41,376 nucleotides of DNA from Chitinophagales bacterium (GTDB lineage: Bacteria; Bacteroidota; Bacteroidia; Chitinophagales; JADJOU01): the NCBI GenBank assembly GCA_025455685.1, contig JALOMB010000004.1:1-41376 (forward strand), given 5' to 3'. Position numbers and translations under genes: made by a program. Below, in pieces: positions 22,406-29,104 of the stretch (its first letter is position 1; every line of letters begins with the position of its first letter). The notes below the pieces were generated by a model. It searched no databases. It saw only the letters and a program-made list of their open reading frames with translations, and was not told the DNA's origin.

Positions 22406-23749
22406 ATGGCCAATCCCAAACATATCATTTTTTTGGTAGCAGATAGTTTAAGAAAAGATTCTGTCTATCAAGATATGGGGCTAGATTACATAGCTGCAAA
22501 TTCTTCCCAATTTACTCAGGCACGCTCTTCAGCGTGTTGGACGCTTCCAGCTACTTCTTGTCTTTTTACTGGCTTAAACGTTCATGAACACGGAACTGAT
22601 ACGCATACAAGAAGATTAAAACCGGAAATTCCTGTACTATCGGAAATTCTAAAATCCAAAGGTTATACGACAATTCAGGTTACTGCAAATCCTGTGACAA
22701 CACATGTGTTTGGTTTAGATAGAGGTTTTGATGAAATGCATAAAGTTTGGAGTATGGTCACACCAAAGCTCCAAAAAACAATGAGATTGGTACTTGCGAT
22801 GGGCAAGCCAAGGGTCAGAAATATGCTTTTTTCTAAGGATATTGTGTCTCAGCAGCTTCTCGAAGACTTAGAGGTTGCCAATTGTTGGGGACAAGTCACT
22901 CAAAATGAAGCTTTAGCCTTTGTGAATAAAAGAATAGAAGAAGCTGACAAAAAAGGGGAAAAATGCTTTTTTTTCATTAATATCATGGAAACGCATTTCC
23001 CATATCATATTGCAGACACTTTTTCTCTTTTGTCCAAAGGATTAGCCAATAAACTTATCGAAGCTAGAACACTTTTTCAGTTAATTAATCAAAATTTTTT
23101 ATATTCTGATAATCATAGTTTGAAGCCAAACTATATAGACGTGATTTTCCAAAGACAAAAACTCAGTTTTCAACTCATTAAAAAAGACATAGATAATTTC
23201 GTCAAAAAGCATCATGAAAATCAAAATAATCTCGTGGTTTTTTGTTCAGATCATGGAGATAACTTCGGAGAAATGGATTGGTTTTATCATTTTTCTAATG
23301 TCACAGATGCAGGTAATCGGGTACCATTTTTTTGGTTAGATAATGAATCAAATGACGCTAAAACTATTGATACTCCTGTATCAACGCGATTTGTTTTTGA
23401 TTCTATTTTAGAAAAAGTCGGAATTTCAAGGCAAGTAACCCTATTTAAAAATCAAACCTTAAATATGCCCTTGATTCAATCATATTGGTATCATCATCAA
23501 AAAGGAACACTAGATAAATACAAATACAATCAATTTCTTTTTGTAAATGAATCAATGCGCTACTTAAAAAGAAATGATCAATGGTTTCAAAGCCCTATAA
23601 CTCATGATGAATATCATGATGAACCTCATTTTCAGCCTATAGATAATCTCGATCCAATTGAGGAATTTGTATTTGATGAGGAAAGAAAAAACTATTTACG
23701 TCAGCAGTTATCTAATTTTTCTAATTTTTCCAAGATTCCTAGAACATAA
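22406..23749 (+). CDS. alkaline-phosphatase-superfamily (sulfatase-like) enzyme
   Basis: HIIFLVADSLRKDSV N-terminal metal site, CWTLPATSCLFTGLNVHEHGT, VVFCSDHGDNFGE. Thr in place of the sulfatase Cys. Confidence 0.85.
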   Translation: MANPKHIIFLVADSLRKDSVYQDMGLDYIAANSSQFTQARSSACWTLPATSCLFTGLNVHEHGTDTHTRRLKPEIPVLSEILKSKGYTTIQVTANPVTTHVFGLDRGFDEMHKVWSMVTPKLQKTMRLVLAMGKPRVRNMLFSKDIVSQQLLEDLEVANCWGQVTQNEALAFVNKRIEEADKKGEKCFFFINIMETHFPYHIADTFSLLSKGLANKLIEARTLFQLINQNFLYSDNHSLKPNYIDVIFQRQKLSFQLIKKDIDNFVKKHHENQNNLVVFCSDHGDNFGEMDWFYHFSNVTDAGNRVPFFWLDNESNDAKTIDTPVSTRFVFDSILEKVGISRQVTLFKNQTLNMPLIQSYWYHHQKGTLDKYKYNQFLFVNESMRYLKRNDQWFQSPITHDEYHDEPHFQPIDNLDPIEEFVFDEERKNYLRQQLSNFSNFSKIPRT

Positions 23750-23752
23750 TCA

Positions 23753-24706
23753 ATGTTTGAAAAAGATCAAATCTCCTTTCAGATTTCACAGAAAAATCCG
23801 CTTTATCTCTCTAAAACAATCTCAATGATCGAAAGTACGAGAGCGGAAGATCAAGAATTCATAGAACAATGGTTTAGTCAGCAAAGTGACATGTCTGTGT
23901 CTCGTGTACTCGGCATCACAGGACCACCTGGTGTAGGCAAAAGTTCATTTATCAATGAATTTGTCGCAGAACTTTTACCCTCAAATAAAACTTTTGCTAT
24001 TTTGTCTATTGACCCTTCGTCATCACTAAGTCAGGGCAGTATACTAGGAGATAAGACTAGAATGAATAAAATTTCAGCTCATCCCAATGTTTTTATCCGT
24101 CCATCTCCATCTTCTAACGAACTTGGAGGGTTAGGTCGAAAGTCACATTTGATAATTGAGCTTTTTAGAATGGCTCAGTTTGATTATATCTTAGTAGAAA
24201 CTGTCGGTGTAGGACAGTCCGAGTTTTCTGTAAAATATTTAGTAGATTTTTTGATTTTGCTCATGCAACCCATGAGTGGTGATGAACTGCAAGGAATTAA
24301 AAAAGGAATTATTGAGTTAGCCGATATGTATCTTATTAGCAAATCAGATTTACAAGACCAAACATATTCTAATCAAGCCTTTCTCGATATTTCAAATGCC
24401 TTGCATTATCAAGCTCAAGAAAACAAACCCGTAATTCAGATCTCTAATATCAATAGACTTGGCATGAATGAGGTAATCCAACATTTAGAAATGTCTTTTA
24501 ACGAGCCTAATTTCATAACTCAAAAATCCAAAAAGAGAAAAGAAAATCTAACCTATTGGACGGCAGAAATGATACAAAGAGAAATTATTCAAAAATTAAA
24601 TATTTTTTTGAAGGCTCATGAGTTAGCATTTCAAGACTTGGATTCTTTAGCGCATGCCTTATCTATTAAAAATAAATTAACCCAAGATTTTTTTACTTAT
24701 GAATAA
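23753..24706 (+). CDS. meaB: MeaB/ArgK-like P-loop GTPase
   Basis: GITGPPGVGKSSFINEF, SIDPSSSLSQGSILGDKTRM, IRPSPSSNELGGLGRKS, VETVGVGQSE, ISKSD. Confidence 0.88.
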   Translation: MFEKDQISFQISQKNPLYLSKTISMIESTRAEDQEFIEQWFSQQSDMSVSRVLGITGPPGVGKSSFINEFVAELLPSNKTFAILSIDPSSSLSQGSILGDKTRMNKISAHPNVFIRPSPSSNELGGLGRKSHLIIELFRMAQFDYILVETVGVGQSEFSVKYLVDFLILLMQPMSGDELQGIKKGIIELADMYLISKSDLQDQTYSNQAFLDISNALHYQAQENKPVIQISNINRLGMNEVIQHLEMSFNEPNFITQKSKKRKENLTYWTAEMIQREIIQKLNIFLKAHELAFQDLDSLAHALSIKNKLTQDFFTYE

Positions 24707-25514
24707 TGTTTTATTTGATTTAACAGGAAAAATTGCCATTGTGACAGGAGCATCAGGTTTAATTGGTTCGCATCATTGTCGAGCTTTGGCCTCACATGGG
24801 GCGCATGTTGTAGTCGCAGATATAGATATCGAAGGATGCAAACGAGTCGTCGATTCCTTGCCTAATCCTTCAAATCACTTTGCCATTAGCTTTGATGTGA
24901 CAAATAAGAAATCTATAGAAGCTGCAAAAGTAGAAATTTTACTTCAATATAATAAAATAGATATTTTGGTTAATAATGCCGCTATCAATGATATGTTTGA
25001 AAACCCTGCTTTAGCTGCAAATCAATCGATGTTTGAGCATTATCCAGAGGACATGCTCGATAAGTCTATGCAGGTTAATATAAAAGGCGTTTTTCTTTGC
25101 AGTCAGGTCTTTGGACAAGCTATGAAGGCTCAGAAAAAAGGTTCCATTATCAATATAGCCTCTACTTATGGCATCGTTGGTCCTGATCAGTCTATTTATA
25201 AGGATCAGTTTGGTAACCAAAGTTTTTACAAGTCTGCTGCGTATCCAATTACCAAAGGAGCGGTGATTAATTTTACTCGTTTTCTAGCGGCTTATTGGGG
25301 AAAAGACGGCATACGGGTCAATACGCTTTCTCCAGGAGGTGTAGCAAATGGCCAAGATACTTTTTTTGTTCAGAATTATACCGCCAAAACACCTATTGGT
25401 CGAATGGCACAGCCCAATGATTATGAAGGCGCAATTGTATTTCTCGCTAGTGATGCATCTAGTTATATGACCGGAGCAAATCTAATAGTCGATGGTGGTT
25501 GGACAGCAATTTAA
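24699..25514 (+). CDS. short-chain dehydrogenase/reductase
   Basis: AIVTGASGLIGSHHCRAL, LVNNAAIND, SIINIAS...YPITKGAVINFTR, GANLIVDGGWTAI. Confidence 0.93.
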   Translation: MNNVLFDLTGKIAIVTGASGLIGSHHCRALASHGAHVVVADIDIEGCKRVVDSLPNPSNHFAISFDVTNKKSIEAAKVEILLQYNKIDILVNNAAINDMFENPALAANQSMFEHYPEDMLDKSMQVNIKGVFLCSQVFGQAMKAQKKGSIINIASTYGIVGPDQSIYKDQFGNQSFYKSAAYPITKGAVINFTRFLAAYWGKDGIRVNTLSPGGVANGQDTFFVQNYTAKTPIGRMAQPNDYEGAIVFLASDASSYMTGANLIVDGGWTAI

Positions 25515-25523
25515 TATTAAACT

Positions 25524-26033
25524 ATGAAAAAAAACTTAATTAAAGCAGTATCGAATCTCAAATGGATTTTTACTGATATAGACGGGGTCATGACGGATAC
25601 TGGGGTTTATTATTCCGATCAAGGTGAAATGCTAAAAAAGTTTAACCTAAAAGATGGCATGGCATGTGAACGTCTTAGATTATTTACAGATATTAAGATT
25701 GGATTTATCACAGGTGAAAATTCTCAAATTGTAGCAAGAAGAGCCGAAAAACTCAAGATTGATAAGGTCTTCTTAGGCATCAAAGATAAAAAACAAGTTT
25801 TAGGGGATTTTTTGTTGGAAAATAATATCCAATGGGATGAAATCGCTTATATTGGAGACGATATGAACGATATAGAAGTTTTAGAATTAGCGGGAATTTC
25901 AGCATGTCCAGCAGATGCATTTTCTTGGATTTTGCCAAAAGTTGATTATATTTGCCAAAATATTGGAGGTCAGGGTTGCTTTCGCGAATATGTCGAATGG
26001 TTACTCAGTTTTACAAATTATCAAAAAAAATAA
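25524..26033 (+). CDS. KdsC-like HAD phosphatase (C0 type), putative nonulosonate/ulosonate phosphate phosphatase
   Basis: WIFTDIDGVMTDTGVYYSDQGEMLKKFNLKDGMACERL, GFITGENSQIVARRAEKL, AYIGDDMNDIEVL. Confidence 0.92.
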   Translation: MKKNLIKAVSNLKWIFTDIDGVMTDTGVYYSDQGEMLKKFNLKDGMACERLRLFTDIKIGFITGENSQIVARRAEKLKIDKVFLGIKDKKQVLGDFLLENNIQWDEIAYIGDDMNDIEVLELAGISACPADAFSWILPKVDYICQNIGGQGCFREYVEWLLSFTNYQKK

Positions 26034-26038
26034 AAAAT

Positions 26039-26911
26039 ATGAAAGAAATTATTTTATCAAATGGGAAAAAAATTGGCGGTAACCATCCTGCTTTTGTTAT
26101 TGCAGAGATTGGCTTAAATCATAATGGTGATATGCAGATTTGCAAACAACTCATCCATAAGGCAAAAGAAGCAGGAGCAGATGCTGTAAAGTTCCAAAAA
26201 AGAACTCCAGAAGTATGTACGCCTAGAGATCAATGGGATATTGTAAGGGAAACACCTTGGGGTACAATGACCTATATTGAATATAGACATAGAATTGAGT
26301 TTGGAGAAGAAGAGTATGCGGCTATTGATAAACTCTGCAAAGAACTCGATATTACTTGGTTTGCCTCATGTTGGGATGAAGAGTCTGTAGATTTTCTAGA
26401 ACAGTTTAAACCTATGCTTTATAAAGCAGCATCTGCTTCCTTGACGGATATTGAATTGCTAAAAAAGAAAAAAAATACAGGAAAACCGCTGATTATTTCT
26501 ACGGGTATGAGCTCAGAAGCAGAGATTAAATCAGCTGTGTCTGCTATTGGTATAGATAACCTCATGATCGCTCATGCGACCTCTACATATCCATGTAAGC
26601 CAGAAGAACTCAATCTAAATATGATTCATACCCTAGAATCTTGGTTTCCTGAAGCTATTATCGGCTATAGTGGACATGAAACTGGACTTGCCACTACTTT
26701 AGCCACTATTGCTTTAGGAGCTAAATTTATAGAGCGTCATTTTACTTTAGACCGTGCTATGTGGGGAAGTGATCAATCCGCTTCTGTAGAACCGGGTGGT
26801 TTTGAGAAAATGGTACGCGATATTCGAGATATAGAAGTTGCTCTTGGCGATGGCGTCAAAAGAGTTTATGAAAGTGAACTAGGACCTAAGAAAAAATTAA
26901 GAAGAATCTAA
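26039..26911 (+). CDS. neuB: NeuB-family sialic/nonulosonic acid synthase
   Basis: FVIAEIGLNHNGDMQICKQLIHKAKEAGADAVKFQKR, KAASASLTDIELL, IISTGMSSEAEI, IGYSGHETGLATTLATIALGAKFIERHFTLDRAMWGSDQSASVEP. ATG 26039 preferred over listed start 25952. Confidence 0.93.
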   Translation: MKEIILSNGKKIGGNHPAFVIAEIGLNHNGDMQICKQLIHKAKEAGADAVKFQKRTPEVCTPRDQWDIVRETPWGTMTYIEYRHRIEFGEEEYAAIDKLCKELDITWFASCWDEESVDFLEQFKPMLYKAASASLTDIELLKKKKNTGKPLIISTGMSSEAEIKSAVSAIGIDNLMIAHATSTYPCKPEELNLNMIHTLESWFPEAIIGYSGHETGLATTLATIALGAKFIERHFTLDRAMWGSDQSASVEPGGFEKMVRDIRDIEVALGDGVKRVYESELGPKKKLRRI

Positions 26912-26913
26912 CC

Positions 26914-28002
26914 ATGTTCTTGCTAATCCCCGATTGGATTTCAGCATATTCCATTTCTGAATTTTCCTTGATCGGTACGATAATTATAGTTTCTTGGGCG
27001 ATCTTAATGATCGTATTGGAGCAATTATACCCATATCAAAAAGACCTTAAAATTTTTAGAAGAGGTTTTTGGCTTGATTTAGTTTGGTACACACTGATTC
27101 AGAGTTATTTTCTTCAAATAGTTATTTTTGAGTGGATTATCAAACCAATTCGTCTATATGCATTTCCAGATGATCATGGATTAATATCACATTGGCCTTT
27201 TTGGGCAATCGTTTTATTTTTTTTGGTTACTCATGACTTCTATATATATTGGTTTCATAGACTTCAACATCAAATTGCTTTTTTTTGGCGTACTCATGAA
27301 GCGCATCATTCAGTAAGAGATGTGGATTGGTTGGCGGGAAGTCGATCACATTTTACTGAAATTCTAATCAATCAAACCATTGAGTTTTTGCCCATTTTTC
27401 TGCTTCTCGATGCTCATTCTGCCTCCTATATGGTAATCATCAAAGGCGTCATCGACGCGACATGGGGTATGTGGATACATGCCAATGTTGACGTTAGAAG
27501 TGGCAAACTACAATATTTCTTTAATGGTCCTGAGATGCATCAATGGCATCATGCGAATCATCACGAAGTTTTTTACAAGAATTTTTCAACTAAATTAGCT
27601 ATTTGGGATTGGCTTTTTGGTACTGGATTTCTTCCGGGTCTTAAACCCTTGAGTTTTGATTTCATAAAGCCTAAGATTTATGGTTTGCCCTATGCTTATC
27701 CCAATGGATTTTTTTCTCAATTGATCTATGCCTTAGTTAGATACGACTTTTCCACTTTTGAAAACAAAACTCTTTATCGATACTTGTTACTTTTTCGTCA
27801 AAATTTTGTCAAAGGATTAGATAGCTTATTTTCTACTAAAATATATGACTTCTTATTTGACACAGAAAACAAAAAGTATGAACACGAAGATATATATTGC
27901 CATAATTGTGGCCAAAAAATGAAATATTATTATTTAAAAAATCAATTCACACAAAATTGTCAAAACTGTAATCCTTATGAAACTTTGGAAAAATTTAGCT
28001 AG
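26914..28002 (+). CDS. fatty-acid hydroxylase / sterol desaturase family membrane protein with C-terminal Cys-pair tail
   Basis: His boxes HDFYIYWFHR, HEAHHS, HQWHHANHHE; C-terminal CHNCG...CQNCN. Confidence 0.9.
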   Translation: MFLLIPDWISAYSISEFSLIGTIIIVSWAILMIVLEQLYPYQKDLKIFRRGFWLDLVWYTLIQSYFLQIVIFEWIIKPIRLYAFPDDHGLISHWPFWAIVLFFLVTHDFYIYWFHRLQHQIAFFWRTHEAHHSVRDVDWLAGSRSHFTEILINQTIEFLPIFLLLDAHSASYMVIIKGVIDATWGMWIHANVDVRSGKLQYFFNGPEMHQWHHANHHEVFYKNFSTKLAIWDWLFGTGFLPGLKPLSFDFIKPKIYGLPYAYPNGFFSQLIYALVRYDFSTFENKTLYRYLLLFRQNFVKGLDSLFSTKIYDFLFDTENKKYEHEDIYCHNCGQKMKYYYLKNQFTQNCQNCNPYETLEKFS

Positions 28003-29104
28003 TTTAATTATAATGCTCATCAGTTTCGGAGCATTTGCTCAGGAATTTTCATCAGAATTTACTGAAAAGTCCTTTTATAAACTCGGCAAACAAACTTCAA
28101 TTAGAGTTAAGTTACCTAATCAAAACGAATCAAGATTCAAAAAAGTGGTCGCAAAATATCTTGAAGATAAAAAAGCGAGAAGAAACAAAGATTTTACGGA
28201 AAAAAATATGCTTTATTATCAAAGTTATCTCGATGTCAAATCTTCTAAGATTTATGATATCGCATGTCTTTTCCAGGATGAACGAGGGTTTATGGATTTT
28301 TATATAGCCTTGTTTGTAGATTCTCAAACCGTTACCGATCAAAGTCAATTGCTCACTGTAGGCAATAACTTTTATAACTTGTCTTATTATAATTTATACC
28401 AGGATTCTATTGAGGTATCAGAAGATAAACTTAAAAAAATGACAAAAGAACTCGAATCTACCAATAACAAAATTGAAAAACACAATAAAGCCATAGAAAA
28501 TGCAAGTCAGGATACCAAAGATAGAATTAATGAAAATCAAAAATTAAGTAATAGATTATCTTCTGAAGAAGCTAAATTGCCTGGTGCAGAAGCCAAGTTT
28601 AACGATGCCAAAACTGTTTTTGACGCGATCAAAGCCGAAAGGCTTCCATTAGAAGCTTTGGCAAATGAAGTCAAGGATTTAGACAAACAAATCGATAGAC
28701 TTGATAAAAACCTCAAAAACCTCAAAAAAGAGCCGGAACTCAATGCCAATATTATTCCACTTCAAGAAGAAGAGATCAAGAAACTAAGAAATGTTTTTGA
28801 TCAAAAAAATAGAAGTTTCAAGACTACCGAAAAGTCTTTTAATGATCGGTTCAAATCAGCCGAGAAGAACTTCGATAAAGCAGAAAAAGAACTCAATGTC
28901 CTGAATAAAGAAATTAAAAATATCAAGAAAGATATTCAGAAAAATGATAAAAATGTATCTAAAAATTCCGATAAATCAGAAGATTTTAGCGATAATATAA
29001 AAGATTTAAGCGAGCGTTCGGTTTCTTTAACCAAAGAAATTCAAACCGAAAAAGTAGAAAACATGCGACTCAAAGCAGACCAAGCCAAATACATGCTATT
29101 CTAA
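27977..29104 (+). CDS. secreted coiled-coil protein of unknown function
   Basis: Signal peptide MKLWKNLASLIIMLISFGAFAQ; long heptad-like K/E/L/N-rich region; overlaps the upstream CDS by 26 bp. Confidence 0.75.
   Translation: MKLWKNLASLIIMLISFGAFAQEFSSEFTEKSFYKLGKQTSIRVKLPNQNESRFKKVVAKYLEDKKARRNKDFTEKNMLYYQSYLDVKSSKIYDIACLFQDERGFMDFYIALFVDSQTVTDQSQLLTVGNNFYNLSYYNLYQDSIEVSEDKLKKMTKELESTNNKIEKHNKAIENASQDTKDRINENQKLSNRLSSEEAKLPGAEAKFNDAKTVFDAIKAERLPLEALANEVKDLDKQIDRLDKNLKNLKKEPELNANIIPLQEEEIKKLRNVFDQKNRSFKTTEKSFNDRFKSAEKNFDKAEKELNVLNKEIKNIKKDIQKNDKNVSKNSDKSEDFSDNIKDLSERSVSLTKEIQTEKVENMRLKADQAKYMLF

Follow-up and report, generated by a model that had tools for sequence, protein, structure and literature searches.

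Gene content of the locus

The window analysed here is the whole 41,376-nucleotide stretch from a Chitinophagales bacterium (GenBank assembly GCA_025455685.1, contig JALOMB010000004.1) that forms contig C146 of a 2.17 Mb draft genome, 86% complete. It carries six same-strand genes at 22406-28002, among them a KdsC-type phosphatase and a NeuB-family synthase, and re-reading of the coordinates bore out gaps of 3, -8, 9, 5 and 2 bp between them. An earlier, sequence-only reading had taken the six as a single cassette acting on a nonulosonic acid; its family assignments agree with our domain searches (Pfam and NCBIfam profiles), whereas the six-gene cassette was not supported. Four of the six genes belong to a conserved, uncharacterised bacterial pathway of nine to ten genes, and the sulfatase and MeaB genes fall outside that module. 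The genes are as follows:

22406..23749, + strand: sulfatase-superfamily protein with Thr at the nucleophile position (Sulfatase PF00884, stretch SACWTLPATS); neighbour specific to the window's family, non-core
23753..24706, + strand: MeaB GTPase (MeaB PF03308); neighbour specific to the window's family, non-core
24699..25514, + strand: short-chain dehydrogenase/reductase (SDR) oxidoreductase, core module gene; orthologues adjoin KdsC-NeuB in many named loci as well as in f1 and f8
25524..26033, + strand: KdsC-type haloacid dehalogenase (HAD) phosphatase, core gene, motif TDIDGVMTD (NF058599 and TIGR01670 profile scores)
26039..26911, + strand: NeuB-family synthase of a clade lacking the SAF domain, 290 aa, core gene (PF03102; ATG at 26039)
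26914..28002, + strand: fatty-acid-hydroxylase-family membrane protein with conserved di-iron His motifs, core gene (PF04116, 91.9 bits)
27977..29104, + strand: coiled-coil protein, a seventh gene overlapping the hydroxylase gene by 26 bp

Here G000 denotes the window genome, f1 the window's family, G001-G005 its relatives within f1, and f8 and f9 other families. The coiled-coil gene is retained after the hydroxylase gene in G001, G004 and G005 and is elsewhere not part of the module.

The window holds the tail of a conserved operon

Neighbourhood reading and gene mapping identified the SDR–KdsC–NeuB–hydroxylase run of the window as the tail of a conserved operon, the full order of which is GT-B transferase (hereafter GT) – SpsF cytidylyltransferase – transketolase-like N (TKN) – transketolase-like C (TKC) – class-III aminotransferase – SDR – KdsC – NeuB – fatty-acid-hydroxylase-family protein – (small multidrug resistance (SMR) transporter). 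A NeuB search of named genomes, combined with gene mapping, showed that about 45 of the 80 best named loci have this run, whole or partial; these 80 are the best matches among those listed, so about 45/80 is not a frequency. The loci fall in the phyla Bacteroidota, Ignavibacteriota, Chloroflexota and Myxococcota, the carriers being Chitinophagaceae, Hymenobacter, Mucilaginibacter, Saprospiraceae, Flammeovirgaceae, Ignavibacteria, Kapaibacteria, Anaerolineae and Myxococcales, and the Methylomagnum plasmid NZ_AP019784 also bears the module. The small SMR transporter gene lies downstream in 20 of the 45 module loci and no other gene recurs as often; neither an N-acetyltransferase gene nor one of NeuC type was a recurring member of the module in the best 80 named loci and their flanks.

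Among 120 relatives searched, close NeuB orthologues were found in f1 (75-77%), in f8 (65-70%) and once in f9 (58%), the remaining full-length NeuB proteins being near 27-39% identity to the window protein. The SDR–KdsC–NeuB–hydroxylase set is retained in f1 and f8 neighbourhoods, with extra membrane-protein genes before the hydroxylase gene in some f1 genomes, and in f8 it is preceded by a GT-like gene, SpsF, the two transketolase halves and the class-III aminotransferase. The proteins encoded between NeuB and hydroxylase in f1 relatives are long and probably membrane-bound (L035 10396-12030; L038 10406-13712; L040 315-1949); the two tested had no Pfam match. Gene-order conservation in relatives had been set beforehand as a test, and the SDR-KdsC-NeuB-hydroxylase order is kept across phyla; for this reason the six-gene arrangement is more than chance. 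That these genes form one conserved multi-gene module is, in our judgement, close to certain. No description of the module was found in the open-access papers searched; most subscription papers lie outside that scope, and the absence is no proof of novelty.

The sulfatase and MeaB genes are a pair specific to the window's family, neighbours of the module and not part of its core. It is very improbable that they encode enzymes of the same pathway, as the tight spacing in the window might suggest. In f1 the pair does lie near one half of the pathway, next to GT-SpsF in G001-G003 and next to SDR-KdsC-NeuB in G005 and the window, but it is divergent from the pathway genes in the relatives, and neither gene was found near the module in the fetched flanks of the 80 named loci. 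Furthermore, the window MeaB is the strongest MeaB match in the genome, the other above-cut-off match (on C5) being weaker and in a longer frame. It is thus apparently the sole stand-alone MeaB, which suits an ordinary role with methylmalonyl-CoA mutase, and we judged MeaB unlikely as a pathway enzyme on that ground.

The remaining module genes are dispersed yet co-retained

Five further module genes lie on four other contigs of the window genome: adjacent GT and SpsF orthologues on C139, and orthologues of TKN on C120 (70%), TKC on C30 (61%) and the aminotransferase on C106 (60%). The absence of NeuC and CMP-transferase genes pointed out by the sequence-only reading is therefore true of the cassette itself and, for the CMP-transferase, false of the genome, owing to the SpsF orthologue on C139. 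In G001-G003 these further module genes likewise lie on separate contigs. In two f8 genomes that do not carry this NeuB (G012 and G031), GT is absent and only distant homologues of TKN and of the aminotransferase occur. The window genome and its f1 relatives have a triosephosphate-isomerase-like gene ahead of GT-SpsF (L048 10400-12974; L166 7680-10311; L169 8151-10799).

Across 395 Bacteroidia genomes, NeuB (E<=1e-75) was present in 26, GT (E<=1e-30) in 24 and the aminotransferase (E<=1e-100) in 26, with all three common to 24 genomes, which fall in nine families. The exceptions were G172, with NeuB only (56%); G327, which has no GT, is 70% complete and carries the genes close to a contig start; and G411, with the aminotransferase only (42%). 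On one contig of G393 the three genes stand more than 100 kb apart. In the window's family, then, the pathway is dispersed over the genome yet co-retained, so that no single window can show it.

The synthase belongs to a SAF-less NeuB clade

The window NeuB matched PF03102 at 259.8 bits (cut-off 22.1) and stayed below the canonical equivalog cut-offs (TIGR03569, 247.8 of 399.65 bits; TIGR03586, 211.5 of 340.25 bits), the alignment stopping before the SAF part; the search query, 26042-26908, was one N-terminal residue short, which leaves the results unaffected. It shares with canonical NeuB/PseI/LegI synthases the PF03102 barrel and the conserved EIG-NH-G and VK-Q active-site stretches, but has about 35% identity to them, no C-terminal SAF domain and Ser in place of Neisseria Glu134. 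The clade as a whole lacks that domain: in members where a G-D/S-G motif was found, only 18-39 residues remain after its last occurrence. The phylogenetic check proposed for the sequence-only reading placed the window NeuB in a well-supported monophyletic clade (99/99), with several outgroups on long branches. Among solved sequences, SpsE 1vli and the 290-residue 6ncs come nearest; the latter is likewise SAF-less and about 290 aa, but both fall outside the clade, on long branches.

This clade is broader than the module and also turns up without the other module genes: as KdsC-NeuB in Chlorobiota, with an SDR and a CMP-synthetase-KdsC fusion in Chloroflexota, and within a polysaccharide-type locus of G013. 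In three Chloroflexota loci (L122 8655-9884, L123 8661-9908, L129 8670-9998) the SDR comes before a long gene of the CMP-sugar-synthetase type and this NeuB; the long gene of L122 encodes a PseF-like synthetase with a fused KdsC domain. Two large viral (phage) records, MH319754.1 and LR756508.1, also contain homologues of this NeuB with 45-47% identity. A check for a separate synthase elsewhere left the window NeuB as the sole true NeuB found in its genome; the other PF03102 match was rejected as a second NeuB, being weak (24 bits) and in a protein read as 3-deoxy-D-arabino-heptulosonate 7-phosphate synthase.

Phosphatase, probable CMP activation and proposed transfer

The best-scoring model for KdsC was NF058599, the Bacteroides thetaiotaomicron-type phosphatase of 9-phosphorylated 2-keto-3-deoxynononic acid (KDN-9-P), at 164.9 bits, below its cut-off of 180; TIGR01670 gave 136.8 bits (cut-off 107). 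In Mucilaginibacter-type loci KdsC and NeuB are fused in a single frame, as confirmed by profile in L098 and L104 and judged from length and motif position in L095, L099, L100 and L128. Because of this fusion, action of the KdsC phosphatase on the NeuB product is supported. The nonulosonate-type pathway by a phosphorylated route that had been proposed for the locus thus gains support from KdsC beside NeuB, from the fusion and from the KDN-9-P phosphatase as nearest curated model.

For activation, the SpsF protein on C139 has a CTP_transf_3 domain and is predicted from its family to be the CMP-sugar synthetase of the pathway. KdsB was rejected as the activating enzyme of the pathway: a distinct KdsB-like gene is present on C137, so SpsF is not just the KdsB of the genome. 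A CMP-activated ulosonate made by a phosphorylated route is, taken together, a probable outcome of the pathway. The closest precedent is the KDN pathway of B. thetaiotaomicron (BT1714, KDN-9-P phosphatase and CMP-KDN synthetase), with which the module shares a NeuB-family synthase, a separate KdsC-type phosphatase, a CMP-sugar synthetase and the phosphorylated route. It differs in having SpsF and not a NeuA-type synthetase, and in its additional aminotransferase, SDR, altered transketolase-like pair, GT and hydroxylase; the window synthase has no SAF domain, which may be a further difference.

This precedent raises the alternative that the product is plain KDN, with NeuB acting on mannose 6-phosphate (Man-6-P), KdsC dephosphorylating and SpsF yielding CMP-KDN. 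The aminotransferase, the SDR and the transketolase-like pair would in that case make or alter a second constituent of the glycan or glycolipid that contains the KDN. Such a phosphorylated route from Man-6-P has been shown for the B. thetaiotaomicron and Prymnesium enzymes (PMC6200933), and both the nearest curated model of KdsC and the absence of a recurring N-acetyltransferase or NeuC-type gene fit it. However, KdsC scores under the KDN-9-P phosphatase cut-off, and the SDR and aminotransferase genes stay beside KdsC-NeuB even where the transketolase-like genes are absent, which suggests that they serve the same molecule. We therefore consider plain KDN unlikely.

The GT has weak Pfam matches, to Epimerase_2 in 24 of 27 members (best 5.5e-7), to Glyphos_transf in 16 and to polysialyltransferase in one. 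Its AlphaFold model (mean predicted local distance difference test score, pLDDT, 91) adopts a GT-B fold; UDP-GlcNAc 2-epimerases head its PDB matches, and TagF, TarL and a CMP-bound capsule multienzyme rank lower. QEG and HPNE are invariant and QYST is conserved in the alignment, motifs that we take to resemble those of TagF-like and bacterial sialyltransferases. We prefer to read the GT as a putative CMP-sugar transferase, an epimerase being the less favoured reading.

Possible amination and the transketolase-like pair

In the Kdo8N (8-amino-8-deoxy-3-deoxy-D-manno-octulosonic acid) route of Shewanella (KdnA/KdnB), an ulosonic acid is oxidised and then transaminated before CMP activation. This route offers a model for the SDR and aminotransferase, by analogy only, as the enzyme families and the substrate are different. 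Haloarchaeal and rhizobial plasmid relatives of the aminotransferase (37-41%) occur in other contexts where inspected.

TKN and TKC resemble the split transketolase of Carboxydothermus (6yak/6yaj) in being a two-subunit thiamine diphosphate (ThDP) enzyme with the GDG motif and with LSKGH and THQ kept. Unlike that enzyme, the operon family consensus lacks three canonical transketolase His residues, those of GHPG, WHG and THAG being replaced. Because the lost residues are ones that we take to contact the substrate in transketolase, the pair likely has an altered substrate.

The hydroxylase and a possible lipid carrier

The hydroxylase carries the conserved His motifs of its family in the alignment, and its nearest NCBIfam model is OlsE (98.6 bits, far under the cut-off of 475). 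Its C-terminal tail contains two CxxC pairs in the window and in G005, and has no cysteines in G001, G002 and G004. Resemblance to ornithine-lipid systems extends to adjacent genes in two lineages. In two related Ignavibacterium loci, OlsF directly follows the hydroxylase (L058 4867-6642 and L061 11298-13046; 722.5 and 723 bits, cut-off 620), and on the Methylomagnum plasmid the module is followed by an LplT gene and by OlsB-like and OlsA-like genes, the last two scoring far below their cut-offs.

These neighbours raise another alternative, an ornithine-lipid-like or glycosylated aminolipid in which the amine-bearing product would receive acyl groups from Ols-type acyltransferases and a hydroxyl group from the OlsE-like protein, with further decoration by the GT. 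We hold it to be quite improbable: the OlsB/OlsA-like and OlsE-like scores are far beneath the cut-offs, and at E<=1e-60 OlsF (NF052615) was found in none of G000-G005 (separate OlsB/OlsA genes were not searched in G000) and is absent from the window's family, f8 and most operon genomes tested. A general ornithine-lipid link was rejected as general on this survey. Attachment of the product to a lipid is itself plausible, with its strongest support, the adjacent ornithine-lipid synthases, limited to particular lineages; a product both amine-bearing and lipid-attached is a tentative proposal, somewhat short of an even chance.

A proposed pathway

What the analysis shows directly is which genes belong to the module, their order, their co-occurrence, the KdsC-NeuB fusion and the domains of the proteins; the working of the module proposed here goes beyond that. 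We suggest that NeuB condenses phosphoenolpyruvate (PEP) with an aldose phosphate to give a 3-deoxy-ulosonate phosphate, which KdsC would then dephosphorylate, a proposal based on the enzyme families, on the fusion of KdsC with NeuB and on the precedent of KDN-9-P. In the weakest step, the SDR and class-III aminotransferase may swap a hydroxyl for an amine, on the acceptor sugar or on the free ulosonate, while the transketolase-like pair, with canonical residues lost, may supply or extend a precursor. SpsF, judging from its family, would produce the CMP-activated sugar, the GT-B enzyme would pass it to an envelope acceptor, the hydroxylase would modify a lipid moiety, and in loci that have the SMR transporter this protein may flip the product. 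A conserved pathway that yields a CMP-activated, probably amino-bearing nonulosonate by a phosphorylated route and moves it to an envelope acceptor, the lipid step excluded, is the explanation that we favour as a whole, with moderate confidence.

Several observations weigh against this explanation. The best PDB matches of the GT model are UDP-GlcNAc 2-epimerases (template modelling (TM) score up to 0.59, about 12% identity), and the GT could be an epimerase instead. The Ser of the NeuB clade motif YKxxSASLTD, found in almost all members, aligns with the conserved active-site Glu134 of Neisseria NeuB, and given this replacement the chemistry of the clade's NeuB may differ. The aminotransferase frame of the window genome stops early as assembled (L163, on C106, 5350-6480, - strand), with a C-terminal remnant in another frame; the copies of f1 relatives read through, and the interruption may be real decay or an assembly fault. 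Nor are all steps universal. Some of the best 80 loci have no adjacent KdsC, and the transketolase-like pair is missing from the fetched locus of seven Ignavibacteria-type genomes. In six of these (among them L058, on a short contig) no TKC orthologue turned up in the rest of the genome either; the genome of the seventh, L109, has one elsewhere. Last, the Fisher p values for co-occurrence, about 2e-36, ignore kinship, which inflates such statistics, and are descriptive only.

On the evidence above, the module is best read as a nonulosonate-type pathway with extra, unexplained enzymes. A bolder proposal, that it makes a new class of envelope molecule in at least four phyla, an amino-nonulosonate formed via an altered ThDP enzyme and a pyridoxal phosphate (PLP) aminotransferase and carried on a hydroxylated membrane lipid, is speculative and more likely wrong than right. 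The altered transketolase-like pair hints at chemistry beyond the known nonulosonate routes. The conserved sugar-acid pathway occurs in several phyla and in cultivable genera (Hymenobacter and Mucilaginibacter), and the identity of its product would widen the known bacterial nonulosonates and their carriers.

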